This document shows, one piece after another, positions 23,138 through 31,681 of a DNA stretch of 49,955 nt. Position 1 is the first letter of the stretch; the number at the start of each line of letters is the position of its first letter. Under the pieces are notes generated by a model. It did no database searches and was not told where the DNA came from. It saw only the letters and a list, made by a program, of their open reading frames with translations. The position numbers and the translations under genes were made by a program. The stretch comes from a virus: IMG/VR virus record IMGVR_UViG_3300046674_000333, positions 1 to 49,955 of that record. One strand, given 5' to 3'.

Positions 23138-23311
23138 TCAGTCGCCGCCGTCAACCCACCACTGCATGACGAACAGGGATGCCCCGGCGGTGATCAGACC
23201 GATCCCGATGCCAAAGATATTCCATGTTCCCGCTGTGATGAGTGTAAATCCTCCTGTCAACATGGACTGAGACCGCAAATCTTTCAGCTTCGAGGGATCG
23301 AACCGCCTCAT
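23138..23311 (-). CDS. small membrane protein between terminase and portal
   Basis: A 57-aa protein: a basic N-terminus (MRRFDPSKLKDLRSQS) followed by about 30 hydrophobic residues (TLITAGTWNIFGIGIGLITA) that could span the membrane once or as a hairpin. ATG at 23311 overlaps the terminase stop (TGATG). The gene is noticeably less GC-rich than its neighbours. Function unknown. Confidence 0.6.
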   Translation of the reverse strand: MRRFDPSKLKDLRSQSMLTGGFTLITAGTWNIFGIGIGLITAGASLFVMQWWVDGGD

Positions 23312-24648
23312 CACACCCACCTCATCCGGGGCCGCCCACCGAGATCCAGTTCGGCGACCATGTACCTGCCCGCATCCATCCCGTGATCGTTCACCTTCAG
23401 CGGCACCTCCGGCGACGTCCCGCCCGGCTTCACCGCCCACACGTAGCCCGTGACCTCCTCCTCGGTGGAACACGGCTTCTTCGCCTCATCAAGCTCTGTG
23501 TCCCGCTCGACCAGCGCGCCGCGCACGATGAACAGCCGCGCCCGCCCGTCGCCCGCCACCTTCAACCGCGTCTGCACCGCCTGGATCCCCGGGCTGACGC
23601 TCTTGTTCGCCGCCACCGTCGACAGCTCCAGGTGCTTCTCCAGCGTGGCCCGGTCCTCCGCGTCGTGGTCGCAGATCACCGCGCGCGGCCGCGGCTCCCG
23701 CCACTGCCCCGACGGGTAGACCATCAGCGCCCGCGCCTGCCGCGCCACATCCTCGACCAGGCGCCGCGTGTGGTAGATCTCCCGGTACAGGAACAGCCGG
23801 CCGTCAGGGTCCTCGGCCCACCACTGCACCACCATGGGGTTGGTGAACCCGAAGTCGACGGCCATCCACCTCGTCCACTCGTGCGGGATCGTGAACGGGT
23901 CGACCAGGTGCACGGCCTCGTCGAACTCGCCGTAAATGAGGCCCTCGGCCGCCGCCCACGTCCCGTCGCGGAGGCGAGCCTTGCGGACGCCGGTGAGCGC
24001 GTCGAGCTTGGCCAGGTAGGCGCGGCCCACCTCGGTGGGGGTCCCGTCGGCCCGCATGTAGGCGGGGTTGTCGATGTGCCGGGAGACGAGCATCCGCGCG
24101 GCGCCCTGGTCGCAGCGCTGCTTGATCCAGTGCGTGGGGGCGGACGGGTTGCAGGCGCCCATCTGCTGCTGCCACGACAGCTTCCCGTTCCGCAGGCGCG
24201 TACCGACGGACTCCCAGTCGTCGAGGGTGAGTTCGGTCGCCTCGTCACCGAAGACCAAGTCGTACTCGGCGGACATAATCTTCGCGGGTTTGTCCATCCC
24301 CGCAACGTCGATCTTCGCGCCGTTCGAGTACCGGTACCCCGGAGCTTCGCGGGGCGAGCCGCCGAACCAGGTGACGATGCCGCGCGCGAGCGCGTCGGGG
24401 ATGACCTTCTTCTCCCACGTGACCAGCGTGGTCGAGCCGAGGCTGACCGCGGTCTTGCGGAAGATCAGGCCGCGCATGTCCGGGTTGTGCAGCGCGGCCA
24501 GGTGCAGGCGGAACAGACAGGCGAGAGACTTGCCGGTGCCCGCCGGCCCCGCCATGAACACTTCGGACTCGCGCGCCTTGAATAGCGCTTGAGCTGCGCC
24601 CCGCGGTTCGTAGCGGACGACCGCGTCACGGTCGAGCGCGGTCGTCAC
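23311..24648 (-). CDS. terL: terminase large subunit
   Basis: A 445-aa protein with ATPase Walker A GPAGTGKS (residues 34-41), Walker B LVFGDEATE (131-139, D135/E136) and a C-terminal RNase H-like nuclease with acidic candidates in MAVDFGFTNP, VICDHDAEDRATLEKH and NDHGMDAGRY. It translocates and cuts phage DNA at the portal. GTG start (24648) overlaps the stop of the 57-aa gene (GTGA). Length is normal for the family. Confidence 0.95.
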   Translation of the reverse strand: MTTALDRDAVVRYEPRGAAQALFKARESEVFMAGPAGTGKSLACLFRLHLAALHNPDMRGLIFRKTAVSLGSTTLVTWEKKVIPDALARGIVTWFGGSPREAPGYRYSNGAKIDVAGMDKPAKIMSAEYDLVFGDEATELTLDDWESVGTRLRNGKLSWQQQMGACNPSAPTHWIKQRCDQGAARMLVSRHIDNPAYMRADGTPTEVGRAYLAKLDALTGVRKARLRDGTWAAAEGLIYGEFDEAVHLVDPFTIPHEWTRWMAVDFGFTNPMVVQWWAEDPDGRLFLYREIYHTRRLVEDVARQARALMVYPSGQWREPRPRAVICDHDAEDRATLEKHLELSTVAANKSVSPGIQAVQTRLKVAGDGRARLFIVRGALVERDTELDEAKKPCSTEEEVTGYVWAVKPGGTSPEVPLKVNDHGMDAGRYMVAELDLGGRPRMRWV

Positions 24649-25898: not shown

Positions 25899-26240
25899 TC
25901 AGGCGGCGAGCAGGAGGCGGGCGGCGAGCTGGTGGTAGCAGCGGCTGCCCTTCAGGCCGGCGGGGCAGGTGCAGGCGCTGGGGGCCGAGCGGTAGGTCTC
26001 GGTGCCGTCGGTGGAGACGGCGAGGAAGACGACCGAGCGGAGGGGGATGATCGCGGCGTCGGCGATCAACTCGCGGGCGCTGGCGATCTGGTGGGGCTTG
26101 TAGTCGCTGGTGTCGACGGCGGCGGCGCGGATGTGGCGGGCGCAGGTGGGGCCGTAGCCGGTGGCGGTGGAGCGGGCGGAGGTGAGGGTGCGGCCGCAGC
26201 GGAGGCAGTTGGTGTGCTGGTGGGTGGTGGTGTTCTGCAT
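25899..26240 (-). CDS. two-zinc-site protein, DUF6011-like head and SWIM-like tail
   Basis: A 113-aa protein. Residues about 12-32 (CLRCGRTLTSARSTATGYGP, then TCARH) match the DUF6011 zinc pattern common in actinophages; residues about 86-110 (CTCPAGLKGSRCYHQLAARL) fit the CxC..CxH SWIM zinc motif, which can bind DNA or protein. The ATG at 26240 is chosen because a longer frame enters the palindromic control region. Divergent from the plus-strand gene at 26342. Confidence 0.75.
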   Translation of the reverse strand: MQNTTTHQHTNCLRCGRTLTSARSTATGYGPTCARHIRAAAVDTSDYKPHQIASARELIADAAIIPLRSVVFLAVSTDGTETYRSAPSACTCPAGLKGSRCYHQLAARLLLAA

Positions 26241-26959: not shown

Positions 26960-27376
26960 TCAGTACTCGCCGGCTGCCCTCAGCTCCTTCGTCACCTGCG
27001 CCCGAAGCTTCGGGCAATACGCCTTGACACCCATCACGAGCAGCTCGTTCGCCTCGCCCTTCTCCGTCCCCCAGTCGCTGCCGAACGGATAGAGCGCAGC
27101 ACCCTGATCATCAAAGATGTAGTCGACGCTGTGCTCCGCCTTCAGCTCCTTGCACCACTGCGGCGGGAACTCGATGAGGTCGCCGTCGGCTGGCGCTCCG
27201 TCATCCCAGCTCGCGAAGTGGGTGTTGTGCACGGAGTCGAGGAAGTCCTCGGACGGTGTGATCTTGGAGGCGGCGGACGGTTTGCTGTCGGTTCCGCTGT
27301 CCGAGTTGGAGCAGCCGGCGGTGGCGGCGATGAGTAGTGCCACGGCTATGCCGGTGACGGTGGTGCGGCGGTGCAT
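26960..27376 (-). CDS. secreted lipoprotein, DUF732-like
   Basis: A 138-aa protein with a short positive N-terminus (MHRRTT), hydrophobic core and a lipobox-like TAGC with C22 as the lipidated cysteine, followed by a Ser/Asp-rich linker. The mature part has FLDSVHNTHFASWDD and two cysteines (QWCKEL, AYCPKL), resembling DUF732, an actinobacterial secreted family. The ATG at 27376 is preceded by GGGGGG. Phage lipoproteins are known to block superinfection in other systems; here that is only an inference from its placement in the accessory island. Bordered by terminators on both sides, it may be transcribed alone in the lysogen. Confidence 0.75.
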   Translation of the reverse strand: MHRRTTVTGIAVALLIAATAGCSNSDSGTDSKPSAASKITPSEDFLDSVHNTHFASWDDGAPADGDLIEFPPQWCKELKAEHSVDYIFDDQGAALYPFGSDWGTEKGEANELLVMGVKAYCPKLRAQVTKELRAAGEY

Positions 27377-27536: not shown

Positions 27537-27680
27537 TCAGCTCTGCTTCTTCTTCTCGCCGGGAACCGGCTTCTTCTCCTCCGGGTACCAACCGCCCCGC
27601 GATGACTGGTACGTCGTGCTGTGCTCGTCTTTCGGTGAGCCCTTTGCGTACCGGGTGGGGAAGTTCTTCGGCAGTGCCAT
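27537..27680 (-). CDS. small 47-aa basic protein
   Basis: Reads MALPKNFPTRYAKGSP near the start, with a middle QSSRGGWYPEEKK and lysine-rich end, stop at 27537. The ATG at 27680 has CAGGAG 8 bases upstream and codon choice is normal. It stands between hairpins at 27465 and 27717, so probably has its own transcript or a read-through. No family recognised. Confidence 0.6.
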   Translation of the reverse strand: MALPKNFPTRYAKGSPKDEHSTTYQSSRGGWYPEEKKPVPGEKKKQS

Positions 27681-27767: not shown

Positions 27768-28463
27768 TCAGCTCTTGGGCTGCTTCTGCTTGGCGGCGTC
27801 GAAGAGTCGGTCGACGAGGTCGCTGACCTGAGAGCGGCGTTCCTGGGTCTCGGCGTGGTCGCGGATCAGCGTTCCGGCCTGGCCGATGGCCTCTACACTC
27901 AACCCCTTCTGAGAGGGGTCCTCGTCGCCGTTGTTGGCGTTGGTGTTGTTGGCTGACCTGCAACAACAACCGTCACCGTGCTCCTCGCTCTCGACAGAAG
28001 GGGCGGGCGGAATGTCCTCGTGATGTACGCCCGGCCCATTGCCGGTAGGGGCGCGGACACCCGACCGGACCCGGACGCCCGCGGCCTTCAACAGAGCGCG
28101 AACGGCTTTCGTGTCGGCGGCGCCGAGCGGCTTCAAGAGTGTCGTCAAGAGCACGTGATGCCCGCCCTCGCCGAGCGTGCGGAGCGCCTCGCCGACGTCC
28201 GGCGGCTCCTGCTCCTCGGGCACCTCGTCGTCGCTGCGCCGCTTCCTGGCCCACGCCGCGGCCCGCTGTACGGCCACGGTCACGATCACTCCGGTCACGA
28301 AGTACGCGACGTAGGGGAAGGCGAGCAGGATCGCCCGAACACCGATCACCACGGCCCCCGCCAGGATCAGCGCCACGACGGCGCCCGCGACCCTGCTCGG
28401 CGGCCCTTCCTCGGTCTCTGGGGCCTCGGTCTCGACGTCCGTGGCGGTGATCTCGTCGCTCAT
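27768..28463 (-). CDS. membrane protein with winged-helix-like cytosolic domain
   Basis: A 231-aa protein: acidic N-terminus, two transmembrane helices (about residues 26-68, VVALILAGAVVIGVRAILLA and YVAYFVTGVIVTVAVQ), then a compact domain (about 90-155, DVGEALRTLGEGGHHVLLTT, ADTKAVRALLKAAGVRVRSG, GNGPGVHHEDIP) with the helix-helix-wing order of winged-helix DNA-binding proteins seen in actinomycete plasmids and phages. Near the end it has CCC and a Asn-rich stretch. ATG at 28463 overlaps the previous stop (TGATG). May tether DNA to the membrane (inference). Confidence 0.65.
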   Translation of the reverse strand: MSDEITATDVETEAPETEEGPPSRVAGAVVALILAGAVVIGVRAILLAFPYVAYFVTGVIVTVAVQRAAAWARKRRSDDEVPEEQEPPDVGEALRTLGEGGHHVLLTTLLKPLGAADTKAVRALLKAAGVRVRSGVRAPTGNGPGVHHEDIPPAPSVESEEHGDGCCCRSANNTNANNGDEDPSQKGLSVEAIGQAGTLIRDHAETQERRSQVSDLVDRLFDAAKQKQPKS

Positions 28464-28972
28464 CACACGGCCCCGTACACGGTGTCGCCGAGCCAGTTCG
28501 CGGCCTGCGCGATCGGGACGGCGGCGAGGCCGGCCACGCCCGCGCTGGTGCCGAGGCAGATGCCGCACCAGGCACCCCACTTGAGCCCTGAGCCGTAGCG
28601 GGACGACTTCTTGATCGCGACGATGATGACCACGGTGAGGATGAGGACGATGCCGCCGCCGGTCTGCGTGAGCGGGATGTAGGCGGTCCCGGAAGACTGC
28701 TGGCCGGTCTGTCCCCCTACGCCCCAGACGAGGGCGACGTCCCCCAGCCAGTTCGTCATCCACAGTGCGGTCTTGGCGGCCCAGCCGATGAGTCCGCCGA
28801 CGCCGAGAGTGACGAGGACGCCGTACGCCCACGACAGGAGGAACGGCAGGAGCGTCCCGATCTGCCGCATTGGGTCGTTGCGGAGGGTTTTGGAGCCGGG
28901 CCACCACTGCACGATGGCTGCGGCGAGGATGCAGATGCCGACGGTGACACCGCCGATGGTCACGTAGTTCAC
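28463..28972 (-). CDS. four-helix integral membrane protein
   Basis: A 169-aa protein with about four transmembrane segments (GVTVGICILAAAIVQWW; LLSWAYGVLVTLGVGGLIGW; GIVLILTVVIIVAI; GICLGTSAGVAGLAAVPIA) and a polar loop GGQTGQQSSGT. GTG start at 28972 just after the stop of the 56-aa membrane gene. It resembles in layout the small Spd/Tra-type membrane proteins of Streptomyces conjugative plasmids, but I cannot assign a family. Confidence 0.6.
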   Translation of the reverse strand: MNYVTIGGVTVGICILAAAIVQWWPGSKTLRNDPMRQIGTLLPFLLSWAYGVLVTLGVGGLIGWAAKTALWMTNWLGDVALVWGVGGQTGQQSSGTAYIPLTQTGGGIVLILTVVIIVAIKKSSRYGSGLKWGAWCGICLGTSAGVAGLAAVPIAQAANWLGDTVYGAV

Positions 28973-28979
28973 GGGGTTC

Positions 28980-29150
28980 CTAGCGGGTGAGGGCCATGCC
29001 GAGCGCGGCGAGGGCGAGTACGCAGACGGTGGTGGCGCTGACGGGCGCGGCGTAGAAAAGCCGGTGGCGGCGGGGCGCGATAGTGCATAGGCCCAGGAGC
29101 CCGATCACGGCTGCGGTGGGGAAGAGCACGGTGAGCACGGCTACTCCCAT
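28980..29150 (-). CDS. 56-aa two-helix membrane protein
   Basis: MGVAVLTVLFPTAAVIGLLG starts the first membrane helix; after PRRHRLFY a second helix (SATTVCVLALAALGMAL) ends the protein. ATG at 29150 overlaps by 10 bases the previous gene. Too short for a known domain; part of the membrane cassette. Confidence 0.55.
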   Translation of the reverse strand: MGVAVLTVLFPTAAVIGLLGLCTIAPRRHRLFYAAPVSATTVCVLALAALGMALTR

Positions 29151-29332
29151 CGCAGGGTGTCGGAGGCGAAGTAGGCGTCCCAGGACCAGGCGGCGGGCGT
29201 GTAGCCGGGCGGGAGGTCTGCGGCCGGCGGGAGCGCGGGGAGCTGCTCGGCGTCGGGGCCTACGCCGCGTTCGCGGAGCAGCGCGCGTATGCCGAGCTCG
29301 GCCGCGTCGGGGCGATGGCGGGTGGCGGTCAT
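29141..29332 (-). CDS. 63-aa soluble protein of the membrane cassette
   Basis: Begins MTATRHRPDAAELGIRALLR, with a proline-rich linker and a WSWDAYFASDTLRWE end. ATG at 29332 overlaps the stop of the large membrane/HTH protein (ATGA). Likely translated by coupling. Function unknown. Confidence 0.6.
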   Translation of the reverse strand: MTATRHRPDAAELGIRALLRERGVGPDAEQLPALPPAADLPPGYTPAAWSWDAYFASDTLRWE

Positions 29333-30840
29333 GGGGTGGGCCTCTCGGCGAGGGCGTCGCGTACCCGCTCGGCGCGTGCCTGGCCGATGCGGAGTTCGGC
29401 CTTGAGTACGCGGATCGAGACGGGCTGGTTGTTGTGGGTACGCCTGTACTCGGCGTCGAGTACGCGGGCGCGGCCGAGGAGCGGGTCCGTACCCGGCGGT
29501 GTACTCGGGGCGGGTACGGACTCTTCGTTGCGGGCCCGCGCGCGTTCCTCGGTGGCCCGGCGCTTGATGAAGTCGAGGGGGTCTTCGAGCGGTTCGTCGG
29601 GCACGCGGGCGTGTACCTGGGTACGGGTGCGCTCGGCCGCAAGTACGGGTTCGGGTGCGCGTACCTCGGGGTGTACCTCGGGCATGTCGGTGAGGTCGAG
29701 TTCGAGCGTCGCGGCTGGTGGAGGCGCGGGTACGTCGTCGGGTACCGGCTCAGGTACGGCGGTGAGCTCGGGGCGCTCGGGTGCGGTCGGCGTGATGCTT
29801 TCGGGCACGCCCCACTTGTCTGCGCGTAGTGCGAGACCGGCCTGCGCCTCGGACACGGGTACGCCGTACTCGGTGCACAGCACGGCCAGTTCGGCACGGT
29901 CCGCTACGGGGTGCGCGCGGTGCACGGACTGGATCGCCTCGATCGGATCCATCCGGCGGAGCTGCTCCCCGGTCACGCCGAGCGGGGTACGCGGGTACGC
30001 CTCGGGTACGGGCTGCTGTACCCACGGGGAGACGACGGGTACGGTCCGCAGCTCTGCGGCGCTGCGCCGCCCGGCAAGCTGCTGCATCAGGGTGTGGCGC
30101 TGCTCGCCGTTCGTGGCCGCGCCGGAGCGGGCCAGCGCGGCGGCGAGCCGGGCCTTGCCCCACGGGCTGAGCCATCGGCGCGCGCCGAGGCGTACAGCGC
30201 GCGCGGTCGCCCGGTCGCGGGTGATCTGCTCCGCGGTACGGTCCCGCGTCGCGAGCCCCACGTACGACAGGAGCCGCTCGCGCAGCTCCCGGCCGATCAT
30301 CGGGAGCAGCCCGGAGGACAGCGCGGCCGGGCGGGCGACGCGGATCTCCAGGCCCATGGCCAGGTGCCAGAGCATGCCGGCCATGACGGGGCCGATGACG
30401 GCGCGGACGGTGCCGCCGAGGATGCCTGACTCGGTGTAGCAGGGGATGACGAGGACGGCCGTGATCAGCCACATGAGGACGCCGGGGACACCGGGTGTTC
30501 CGGCCGACTTCTCGGTGGTGGTGGCGTGCTTGTTGGCGCGGGCCATGACGCCGCACGCCATGAGTGCGACCTCGGCGGCGGCGAACATCACCAGGCGCTC
30601 GGTGGAGTCCGCCATGTCGAGCCGGTGCTTGGCGAACCGCCAGCTCGTGTCACCCGAGTACGCGGTGCACACGAGCGCGCCGGCGGCCGCCATGAGCACG
30701 GCAGTGGGCGGGCGGCGCAGAGAGCGAATGCCCTTTGTTGCGCCCCACGATGCGACGCCGACGAGGGCCATAGCGGCCGCCATGATGGTGGCGGCCGGCC
30801 AGGGGTTGGCGACCGCCCACGGGGTGAGCTGGTCAATCAC
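29329..30840 (-). CDS. multi-pass membrane protein with C-terminal HTH-like domain
   Basis: A 503-aa protein. Residues about 10-165 hold five hydrophobic helices; then MIGRELRERLLSYVGL and ITRDRATARAVRLGARRWLS, a long Pro/Glu/Val-rich linker, and at about 455-500 a helix-turn-helix-like end (VLDAEYRRTHNNQPVSIRVL followed by KAELRIGQARAERVRDAL). This combination of membrane domain, linker and C-terminal HTH recalls DUF2637/Spd-associated proteins of actinomycete plasmids and prophages. I place the start at GTG 30840 (TGGAG upstream), because a frame start at 30978 would overlap the zinc-ribbon gene. Possible membrane-bound DNA tether. Confidence 0.7.
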   Translation of the reverse strand: MIDQLTPWAVANPWPAATIMAAAMALVGVASWGATKGIRSLRRPPTAVLMAAAGALVCTAYSGDTSWRFAKHRLDMADSTERLVMFAAAEVALMACGVMARANKHATTTEKSAGTPGVPGVLMWLITAVLVIPCYTESGILGGTVRAVIGPVMAGMLWHLAMGLEIRVARPAALSSGLLPMIGRELRERLLSYVGLATRDRTAEQITRDRATARAVRLGARRWLSPWGKARLAAALARSGAATNGEQRHTLMQQLAGRRSAAELRTVPVVSPWVQQPVPEAYPRTPLGVTGEQLRRMDPIEAIQSVHRAHPVADRAELAVLCTEYGVPVSEAQAGLALRADKWGVPESITPTAPERPELTAVPEPVPDDVPAPPPAATLELDLTDMPEVHPEVRAPEPVLAAERTRTQVHARVPDEPLEDPLDFIKRRATEERARARNEESVPAPSTPPGTDPLLGRARVLDAEYRRTHNNQPVSIRVLKAELRIGQARAERVRDALAERPTP

Positions 30841-30910
30841 GGTGACTCCAGGAAGGGAGAAGACCGGGCCCCGCTCGGGGGATTTGGCGGGACCCGGCCG
30901 GTCTGGTGGT

Positions 30911-31027
30911 TCAGCGGGCGCGGCGCGTGCTGCTGGCCGGGGCGACGCCGGGGATGAACCAGGCGCCGCATCCGCCACAGACGAACTTGTCGCCCTGGAA
31001 CTCCATGGGCTTTCCGCAGCAGGTCAC
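30911..31027 (-). CDS. tiny zinc-ribbon protein (38 aa)
   Basis: VTCCGKPMEFQGDKFVCGGC: cysteines 3, 4, 17 and 20 make a two-knuckle ribbon, followed by a hydrophobic GAWFIPGVAP and basic end. GTG start at 31027 overlaps the previous stop (GTGA). Such mini zinc ribbons are widespread in actinophages; role unknown. Confidence 0.6.
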   Translation of the reverse strand: MTCCGKPMEFQGDKFVCGGCGAWFIPGVAPASSTRRAR

Positions 31028-31224
31028 CGGCTGCGTGCCTGCTCGTTGCCGTGGGCGCCGGTGATGGCGAGCTGGTCGCGCGCGGCACCAGCGGCGGCCG
31101 ACTGTTCGCCGGGGGTGCGCAGGTCGTTCTTGCACGCCTGGACGGTGGCGGGTTCGTCGATGATCCGGTTGCCGCTCGTCGGGGTACTGGGCTGCGGGGT
31201 GGACTGATCGGTACGCTCGGGCAT
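31024..31224 (-). CDS. 66-aa hydrophilic protein, first gene of the membrane cassette
   Basis: MPERTDQSTPQPSTPTSGNR at the N-terminus is disordered; the middle ATVQACKNDLRTPGEQSAAA is helical. ATG at 31224, divergent from the plus-strand gene at 31388 and next to the TGTAGGGG palindrome, so it likely starts the minus operon to 27768. No family recognised. Confidence 0.55.
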   Translation of the reverse strand: MPERTDQSTPQPSTPTSGNRIIDEPATVQACKNDLRTPGEQSAAAGAARDQLAITGAHGNEQARSR

Positions 31225-31330: not shown

Positions 31331-31351
31331 TGTAGGGGAACCCCCTACACT
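31331..31351. promoter_or_regulatory. operator palindrome overlapping a -10 box
   Basis: TGTAGGGG (31331-31338) and CCCCTACA (31342-31349) are perfect reverse complements around AAC. TACACT at 31346-31351 fits the actinobacterial -10 consensus TAnnnT for the plus-strand gene starting at 31388, so a protein bound here would block it. Divergent minus gene starts at 31224. Confidence 0.65.
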
Positions 31352-31387: not shown

Positions 31388-31681
31388 GTGACCGAGGAGG
31401 CGCAGCGGGTGTTCGACGCCATCGAGGCTTTGAAGGAGATCGCCGACCCGACTGAGAGAGCGCGCGCACTCGGCGAGGTGCTGAAGGCGATGCCGGCGCG
31501 GAGTAAGGACCTGAAGGAGGCCCGGCAGGCTGCGGTGGGCGAGATGTTGGCGAGGCCTGATGCGTCGCTGCGCACCGTGGGGGCCGAGCTGAGCATCAGC
31601 TTCAGCACGGTGCAGGACATCATGAAGGGCTACTCGGGGTCGGGCTCGAAGCGGCCGAAGAAGAGCGATCCGGAGGCGTAG
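31388..31681 (+). CDS. small helix-turn-helix protein
   Basis: A 97-aa protein: helical N-terminal part (EEAQRVFDAIEALKEIADPT), then KEARQAAVGEMLARP and an HTH-like segment SLRTVGAELSISFSTVQDIM at about residues 60-79, with a basic tail. GTG start at 31388, GAAGGGG upstream. It probably binds the adjacent TGTAGGGG palindrome and regulates itself and the divergent cassette (inference). Confidence 0.7.
   Translation: MTEEAQRVFDAIEALKEIADPTERARALGEVLKAMPARSKDLKEARQAAVGEMLARPDASLRTVGAELSISFSTVQDIMKGYSGSGSKRPKKSDPEA

Follow-up and report, generated by a model that had tools for sequence, protein, structure and literature searches.

What might a Streptomyces phage do with a set of membrane proteins that end in DNA-binding-type domains? 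The question is raised by IMG/VR virus record IMGVR_UViG_3300046674_000333, a GC-rich sequence of 49,955 bases (the whole stretch analyzed here, called the window below) from a Streptomyces-type siphophage or prophage. Gene calling revealed genes for the terminase, portal, tail, lysis and replication, almost all of them on the minus strand. Seven coupled genes of that strand occupy 27768-31224, a region flanked by the early arm and the terminase. An initial annotation had described these seven genes as a membrane cassette that includes two membrane-anchored, DNA-binding-like proteins. We found that the cassette is a recurring Streptomyces phage module that stands before the DNA-packaging genes. 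Its architecture, its conserved gene order, its position before the terminase, its family ties and its lack of a motor were computed directly. Our tentative answer is that it forms a membrane complex handling double-stranded DNA (dsDNA), related to the Spd/TraB apparatus for plasmid spread in Streptomyces but motorless, which may aid distribution or persistence of the phage genome.

Results

The genes follow one another on the minus strand in the order p66, zr38, p503, p63, a 56-aa protein with two transmembrane (TM) helices, p169 and p231. Four of them, p503, the 56-aa protein, p169 and p231, are called A, B, C and D. The main features are as follows.

29329..30840, minus strand: A (p503), 503 aa, with four predicted TM helices, a Pro/acid-rich linker and an FtsKgamma-like tail
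29332..29487, minus strand: FtsK gamma-like C-terminal domain of A, residues 452-503, from the tail-family profile compared with PDB
28980..29150, minus strand: B, two TM helices, 56 aa in the window and 47-59 aa across loci
28463..28972, minus strand: C (p169), 169 aa, multi-TM, the most conserved part of the module
27768..28463, minus strand: D (p231), 231 aa, with two TM helices, a predicted cytosolic winged helix and a conserved C-terminal motif
27990..28211, minus strand: winged helix of D, residues 85-158, helix-helix-helix-strand-strand in the AlphaFold model
23311..24648, minus strand: terminase large subunit (TerL), downstream of the module on the same strand (phrog_2, E 3.3e-33)

Neighboring genes overlap by 1-10 nt or sit 7 nt apart, the sole exception being the gap of 70 nt between zr38 and p503. 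Coding is supported by a GC content at third codon positions (GC3) of 0.85-0.92 in the larger genes, and by ratios of nonsynonymous to synonymous polymorphism (pN/pS) of 0.40 for p503 against the related locus L009, and of 0.35 and 0.53 for p169 and p231 against L010. The ratio is below 1 in every cassette gene with enough change to measure; zr38 and p63 are conserved in L009, where they are too similar for it to be calculated. Gene calls, GC3 and pN/pS thus confirmed the seven coupled genes.

A search with C found relatives in viral contigs, Streptomyces genomes and phage OnionKnight, and gene calling showed the order A-B-C-D to be kept around 38 loci, with a B homologue immediately upstream of C in 36 of them by position (35 in one BLAST cluster) and a D gene of at least 90 aa in 35. 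A second search, with the p503 family, added 80 viral loci, and in many of these a more distantly related C lies two or three genes further downstream; over both searches 72 loci have a detectable C, some of them being the same contig fetched twice. C itself matches PHROG 16379 (E 7.8e-21), is 56-85% identical to the 27 relatives listed, with 44 invariant columns, and is present in 18 of 199 sampled Streptomyces genomes (9%). The classical temperate phage VWB holds the complete module, gp23-gp26, upstream of its terminase. The initial annotation knew of no described phage system of this composition; the genes were in fact already part of the published VWB genome, and it is the absence of an attached function that stands, since none is given for gp24-26 in the record annotation and none was found in the titles and abstracts searched. 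The annotated starts of gp25 and gp26 (L151:17668-19508) look too far upstream, the extra N-termini being Arg-rich and out-of-frame-like.

A terminase was identified in 19 of the records with C, and in all of them A sits 3.5-11 kb upstream of TerL and shares its strand. OnionKnight and mu1/6 agree with this placement, the A-type gene of mu1/6 standing directly before the terminase genes. In Dubu and phiSASD1 the A-type gene lies elsewhere, among replication/integrase genes, and no module was seen around it. A phrog_2 match near 6.6 kb in record G059 was rejected as a terminase, PHROGs placing TerL at L147:17478-19103.

We then consider protein A. A TM scan placed its four helices at residues ~16-165; a conserved soluble region comes next, and the linker (~346-452) consists of 21% Pro and 21% Asp+Glu. 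The terminal ~50 residues of 17 family members, among them VWB gp24, were made into a profile and compared with PDB, and the top five matches were all FtsK gamma: 2j5p (3.9e-4), 5dcf (1.8e-3), 2ius (7.4e-3), and 2j5o and 2ve8 (0.039-0.04). Judged by eye, the match of DPLlerAr...RpaSIraLKaeLRIGQkRAqRIrdaL to DPLFDQAVQ... is convincing. Pfam FtsK_gamma matched weakly in 2 of 25 and 1 of 42 A relatives, and p503 alone did not match it at E<=1; the claim is therefore made at the level of the profile, where the tail of A is FtsK gamma-like. In its predicted layout of TM helices, linker and gamma-type domain, p503 resembles an FtsK with the ATPase part removed.

No good match to p503 was obtained among the Pfam, PHROG and NCBIfam models. 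In other phages, 8 of 25 module A proteins match DUF2637 (best 2.2e-40) and others are p503-type. The proteins in the position of p503 in OnionKnight (gp57, 1.1e-14) and VWB (gp24, 1.2e-35) match DUF2637; the bridge from p503 to DUF2637 runs only through L015 of pSCL3. RefSeq labels the DUF2637 membrane proteins of Dubu (L152:5932-6693) and phiSASD1 (L153:5932-6702) as excisionase, a label that probably derives from the helix-turn-helix (HTH) tail alone (PHROG 733).

The gamma-like tail occurs in 46 of 100 distinct A proteins, and most of the others, classed largely by eye, end in MerR/excisionase-like, homeodomain-like or other HTH-like domains, which suggests that membrane and DNA-reading parts were swapped independently. 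DNA readers that are exchanged while their membrane partners stay constant are consistent with a system that has to recognize particular DNA. At six loci (L035, L036, L037, L038, L041 and L049) a soluble HTH-like protein of 100-131 aa stands in place of A, with B, C and D kept, as though the DNA reader had lost its membrane anchor.

Protein D matches PHROG 34550 (E 1.1e-16). Its AlphaFold model, built with 31 sequences, has a mean predicted local distance difference test score (pLDDT) of 73, rising to ~87-92 over residues 100-150, and places TM helices at 24-48 and 50-79. VIA-align matched the winged helix to Rex, DtxR/IdeR, MepR and LexA with Z of 5.3-6.3 over 50-75 residues, values that point to the fold, not the function, and may reflect a common fold. 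Foldseek gave no match to D at E<=0.001, and FtsK/TraB structures were not among the matches listed. The D tails fall into three interrelated subgroups (hhalign 96-98%), and the profile of the largest, D2, matches the C-termini of TraB-like translocases at 93% (E 2.7e-7), while controls with reversed and unrelated HTH profiles reached at most 1.1%. The subgroup to which the window's own D belongs scores 27% directly, so its link to TraB runs through the other D subgroup. In many phages D is short (~110-130 aa), the TM pair being kept and the winged helix gone. A search of the genome contig set with D found no relatives. A His-rich C-terminal motif, for instance GMLIYkTAPPDRPNHTHIHI or IrDPAETHRHH, is seen in many long as well as short D proteins.

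The initial annotation had placed DNA-binding-like domains at residues 450-503 of p503 and 90-155 of p231, and both were borne out, the former by the tail profile and the latter by the model. It had also said that it would fall if the tails lacked a DNA-binding fold, or if the cassette were absent from all related prophages with no fitness effect; since the tails belong to DNA-binding folds or families, and related phages commonly carry the cassette, it holds on both counts.

A relation to plasmid spread genes is seen through the family of p503. Its relatives are found on 31 plasmid records, mostly of Streptomyces, and also on Kitasatospora and mycobacterial plasmids. The S. canus plasmid NZ_CP108819 has the order GntR, traA, traB, a 175-aa gene and a p503 relative. 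Its TraB is 55% identical to pJV1 TraB, and the 175-aa protein shares its N-terminus with the first gene after pJV1 traB (40% over 30 residues). That first gene is SpdB1, followed by SpdB2; the pJV1 record labels both hypothetical. With a pJV1-like TraB and an SpdB1-like gene before it, the p503 relative thus occupies the SpdB2 slot of pJV1. Taken as a set, the DUF2637-type phage A proteins show weak similarity (60%) to pJV1 SpdB2, and the A protein of L025 is 30% identical to pIJ101 SpdB (E 0.001). The TM scan and tail profile found in p503 the architecture of SpdB2, namely several TM helices and a soluble tail of predicted DNA-binding type. The third gene after pJV1 traB (L155:1778-2221, 147 aa, the SpdB3 position) matches PycTM, the membrane domain of Pycsar effectors (1.6e-14), which links a plasmid spread gene to a defense effector family.

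Control region and neighboring genes

The remaining genes of the cassette and its control region are listed below.

31388..31681, plus strand: p97, divergent HTH protein with a weak HTH_23 match, probable operon regulator
31331..31349, no strand: near-perfect palindrome TGTAGGGGAACCCCCTACA between p97 and p66, candidate operator
31024..31224, minus strand: p66, small soluble protein, first gene of the operon, with the motif 'NRIIDEPAT..AC'
30911..31027, minus strand: zr38, 38 aa, zinc-ribbon-like, four Cys (CC...CGGC)
29141..29332, minus strand: p63, small soluble protein, full length only in the window and L009

A member of the p97 family lies divergent from the module in 26 of 72 loci with C, against 3 of 46 loci without a detected C, at 130-330 bp from the first gene. 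The palindrome TGTAGGGGAACCCCCTACA is the only such site in the window (2 strand matches, 0.05 expected), and a near-identical one stands beside the regulator in the relatives L009/L065, L075, L080 and L084. Tra/spd operons are under Kor control, and p97 probably represses the cassette operon in a like manner. KorA/KorB control has been described for pIJ101 (PMC4170104).

The motif of p66 recurs in VWB gp23 and L010. As for the zinc-ribbon protein proposed by the initial annotation, zr38 has the four Cys and the look of a ribbon but no profile support, its best Pfam match being at E 0.17 and no family match being found in Pfam or PHROG.

The sequence GACCCGGA, the TraB recognition sequence (TRS) of pSVH1, has a strand bias of 12:1 in the window. 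Every genic copy is in frame, and when compared with codon shuffles the bias takes rank 317 of 1164. It is thus accounted for by codon usage and was rejected as a TRS signal. No 8-mer stood out as a DNA target, motifs of the type of FtsK orienting polar sequences (KOPS) gave no clear signal, and the near repeats within the cassette have two copies and look like chance matches.

A lipoprotein-like gene of 138 aa comes directly after the module (26960-27376, minus strand), and differing small lipoproteins follow it in OnionKnight (gp62), L011, L012 and others. A Lys-rich 47-aa protein downstream of D (27537-27680, minus strand) has relatives at the same place in OnionKnight, L009, L030, L034 and L043. 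A 113-aa protein that matches DUF6011 (1e-12) and, weakly, a SWIM zinc finger (25899-26240, minus strand) lies near the terminase in several of these phages. At the other end, window positions 1-~4600, with two HTH regulators and a flavoprotein-like gene, look like host chromosome and suggest a prophage boundary. No tRNA genes were found in the window.

Discussion

Under our preferred reading, a membrane complex kin to Spd/TraB, A and D would bind phage DNA and so retain it at the membrane or septum. D would supply a further membrane-anchored winged helix, similar in type to the C-terminal domain of TraB-like pumps, while B and C would be small integral partners that form the membrane body. 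The complex may help the phage genome to distribute or persist across septate hyphal compartments, possibly by using an FtsK-type motor of the host; other phages encode a TraB-like motor, which would do the job directly. Each of these steps past DNA binding is one that we infer.

Several results weigh against this reading. The initial annotation had called for a search against the DUF2637 and Spd families, and here its expectation failed for p503 itself, which has no Pfam match to DUF2637 (PF10935) at E<=1 and no direct similarity to pJV1 SpdB2 (hhalign 0.4%) or pIJ101 SpdB (0.3%). The winged helix is absent from D in most of the closest relatives by C, no C relatives were found in plasmids, and the AlphaFold model of C is poor (27 sequences, mean pLDDT 51.5). 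Neither TRS- nor KOPS-like repeats above codon-usage expectation were found in the window.

The lack of a motor belongs with these points. FtsK/SpoIIIE (PF01580) has no match in the whole window, where no P-loop RecA-like motor domain was found, none in the other virus records with C scanned alongside it, bar one sub-threshold match (the L029 record), and none in 30 further records with C, searched as whole contigs. In contrast, PF01580 matched in 8 of 8 other p503-type records, picked because a large P-loop open reading frame (ORF) comes after A; in another six records where a large ORF follows A, PF01580 was not reached. The contrast of 0/30 with 8/8 (Fisher 2e-8) is post hoc, and the loci are related and non-independent. 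Among the eight, three are clearly phages, since all three have TerL and two also a recognized tape-measure protein; in each of them the TraB-like gene lies between A and TerL, the whole within 6.0-6.3 kb. A profile of the phage motors matches pIJ101 TraB (3e-14). With a motor in the eight A records and none in those with C, there seem to be two forms of one locus, A plus a motor and a motorless A-B-C-D. The likeness to the spread/transfer regions of Streptomyces plasmids, as first proposed, holds at the family level, through the plasmid relatives of p503, the SpdB2 slot, the TraB-like motors and the DUF2637 proteins of VWB and OnionKnight, and does not extend to p503, which lacks DUF2637 and similarity to SpdB2/SpdB, or to the window, which lacks TraB/FtsK.

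The main rival, which we consider somewhat unlikely, is exclusion: a complex made in the lysogen would block injected phage DNA or conjugating plasmids, either by capture at the membrane or by interference with TraB/Spd through look-alike parts. The divergent regulator and candidate operator would suit expression in lysogens, lipoprotein genes often come after the module, a pattern shared with exclusion loci, the exchange of DNA-reading tails would fit an arms race, and a motorless copy of Spd/TraB parts could be dominant-negative. However, some phages pair the same A with an intact TraB-like motor in the same place, which fits moving DNA better than blocking it, and known exclusion proteins rarely need DNA-reading domains.

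It is also conceivable, if rather doubtful, that the kinship with Spd/TraB extends to a general process, in which temperate Streptomyces phages move or distribute their genome as naked dsDNA between mycelial compartments without virions. The forms of the locus would then be interchangeable, either with its own TraB-like motor or as a motorless A-B-C-D that reads phage DNA and borrows the FtsK/TraB motor of the host or a co-resident element.

A role as a packaging aid, with A and D docking replicated phage DNA at the membrane and handing it to the terminase, appears improbable. It draws on the constant place of A before TerL, direct in mu1/6, and on the FtsK gamma domain fused to the small terminase in Bacillus phages Sam46 and Sam112 (PMC8190038). 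The A-type genes of Dubu and phiSASD1 lie away from such a place, this arm of temperate Streptomyces phages can house many non-packaging genes, and the module has a separate regulator. Least probable are membrane-bound transcription regulators or lysogenic conversion proteins, A and D sensing a membrane signal and regulating host or phage genes, since the TM-plus-HTH architecture, the many HTH types in A and the excisionase labels of some A proteins that would suit this are set against a gamma-type tail that is a translocase-type DNA reader, relatives that cluster with tra/spd genes and TraB-like motors, and a label that probably reflects the HTH tail only.

These findings offer a family-level frame for genes annotated as hypothetical, membrane protein or excisionase, present in 9% of sampled Streptomyces genomes. 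As VWB carries the whole module, phage use of plasmid-type membrane DNA handling becomes testable in a multicellular, septate host, and natural motorless relatives of Spd/TraB offer a way to work out the role of Spd proteins. The module is also relevant to what stand-alone FtsK gamma genes, noted in PMC8190038, do in phages.

Comparison with known systems

The small terminase of Sam46 and Sam112 (PMC8190038) is, like A, a phage protein with an FtsK gamma domain and no FtsK motor; unlike A, which is a membrane protein, it is a soluble packaging protein. In VWB, gp24 corresponds to A with the same tail type, gp25 to C (3.3e-12) and gp26 to D (1.9e-56), whereas the membrane part of gp24 is DUF2637-type (1.2e-35) and that of p503 is not. 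With the FtsK/SpoIIIE and TraB translocases the module shares a tail like FtsK gamma in A and one like the C-terminus of TraB-like pumps in D, yet their ATPase motor is found neither in A or D nor anywhere in the window. SpdB2 of the Streptomyces plasmids pJV1, pSVH1 and SLP2 has a multi-TM N-terminus and a soluble DNA-binding tail, as predicted for A. The SpdB2 of pSVH1, a membrane protein, forms oligomers, binds DNA and contacts TraB, and SLP2 is stabilized by spdB2 (PMC4170104). Spd systems accompany a traB translocase gene, and the window is without TraB. By membership, then, the cassette is not an Spd system, having no traB and a p503 that is not DUF2637, yet it is built like one.

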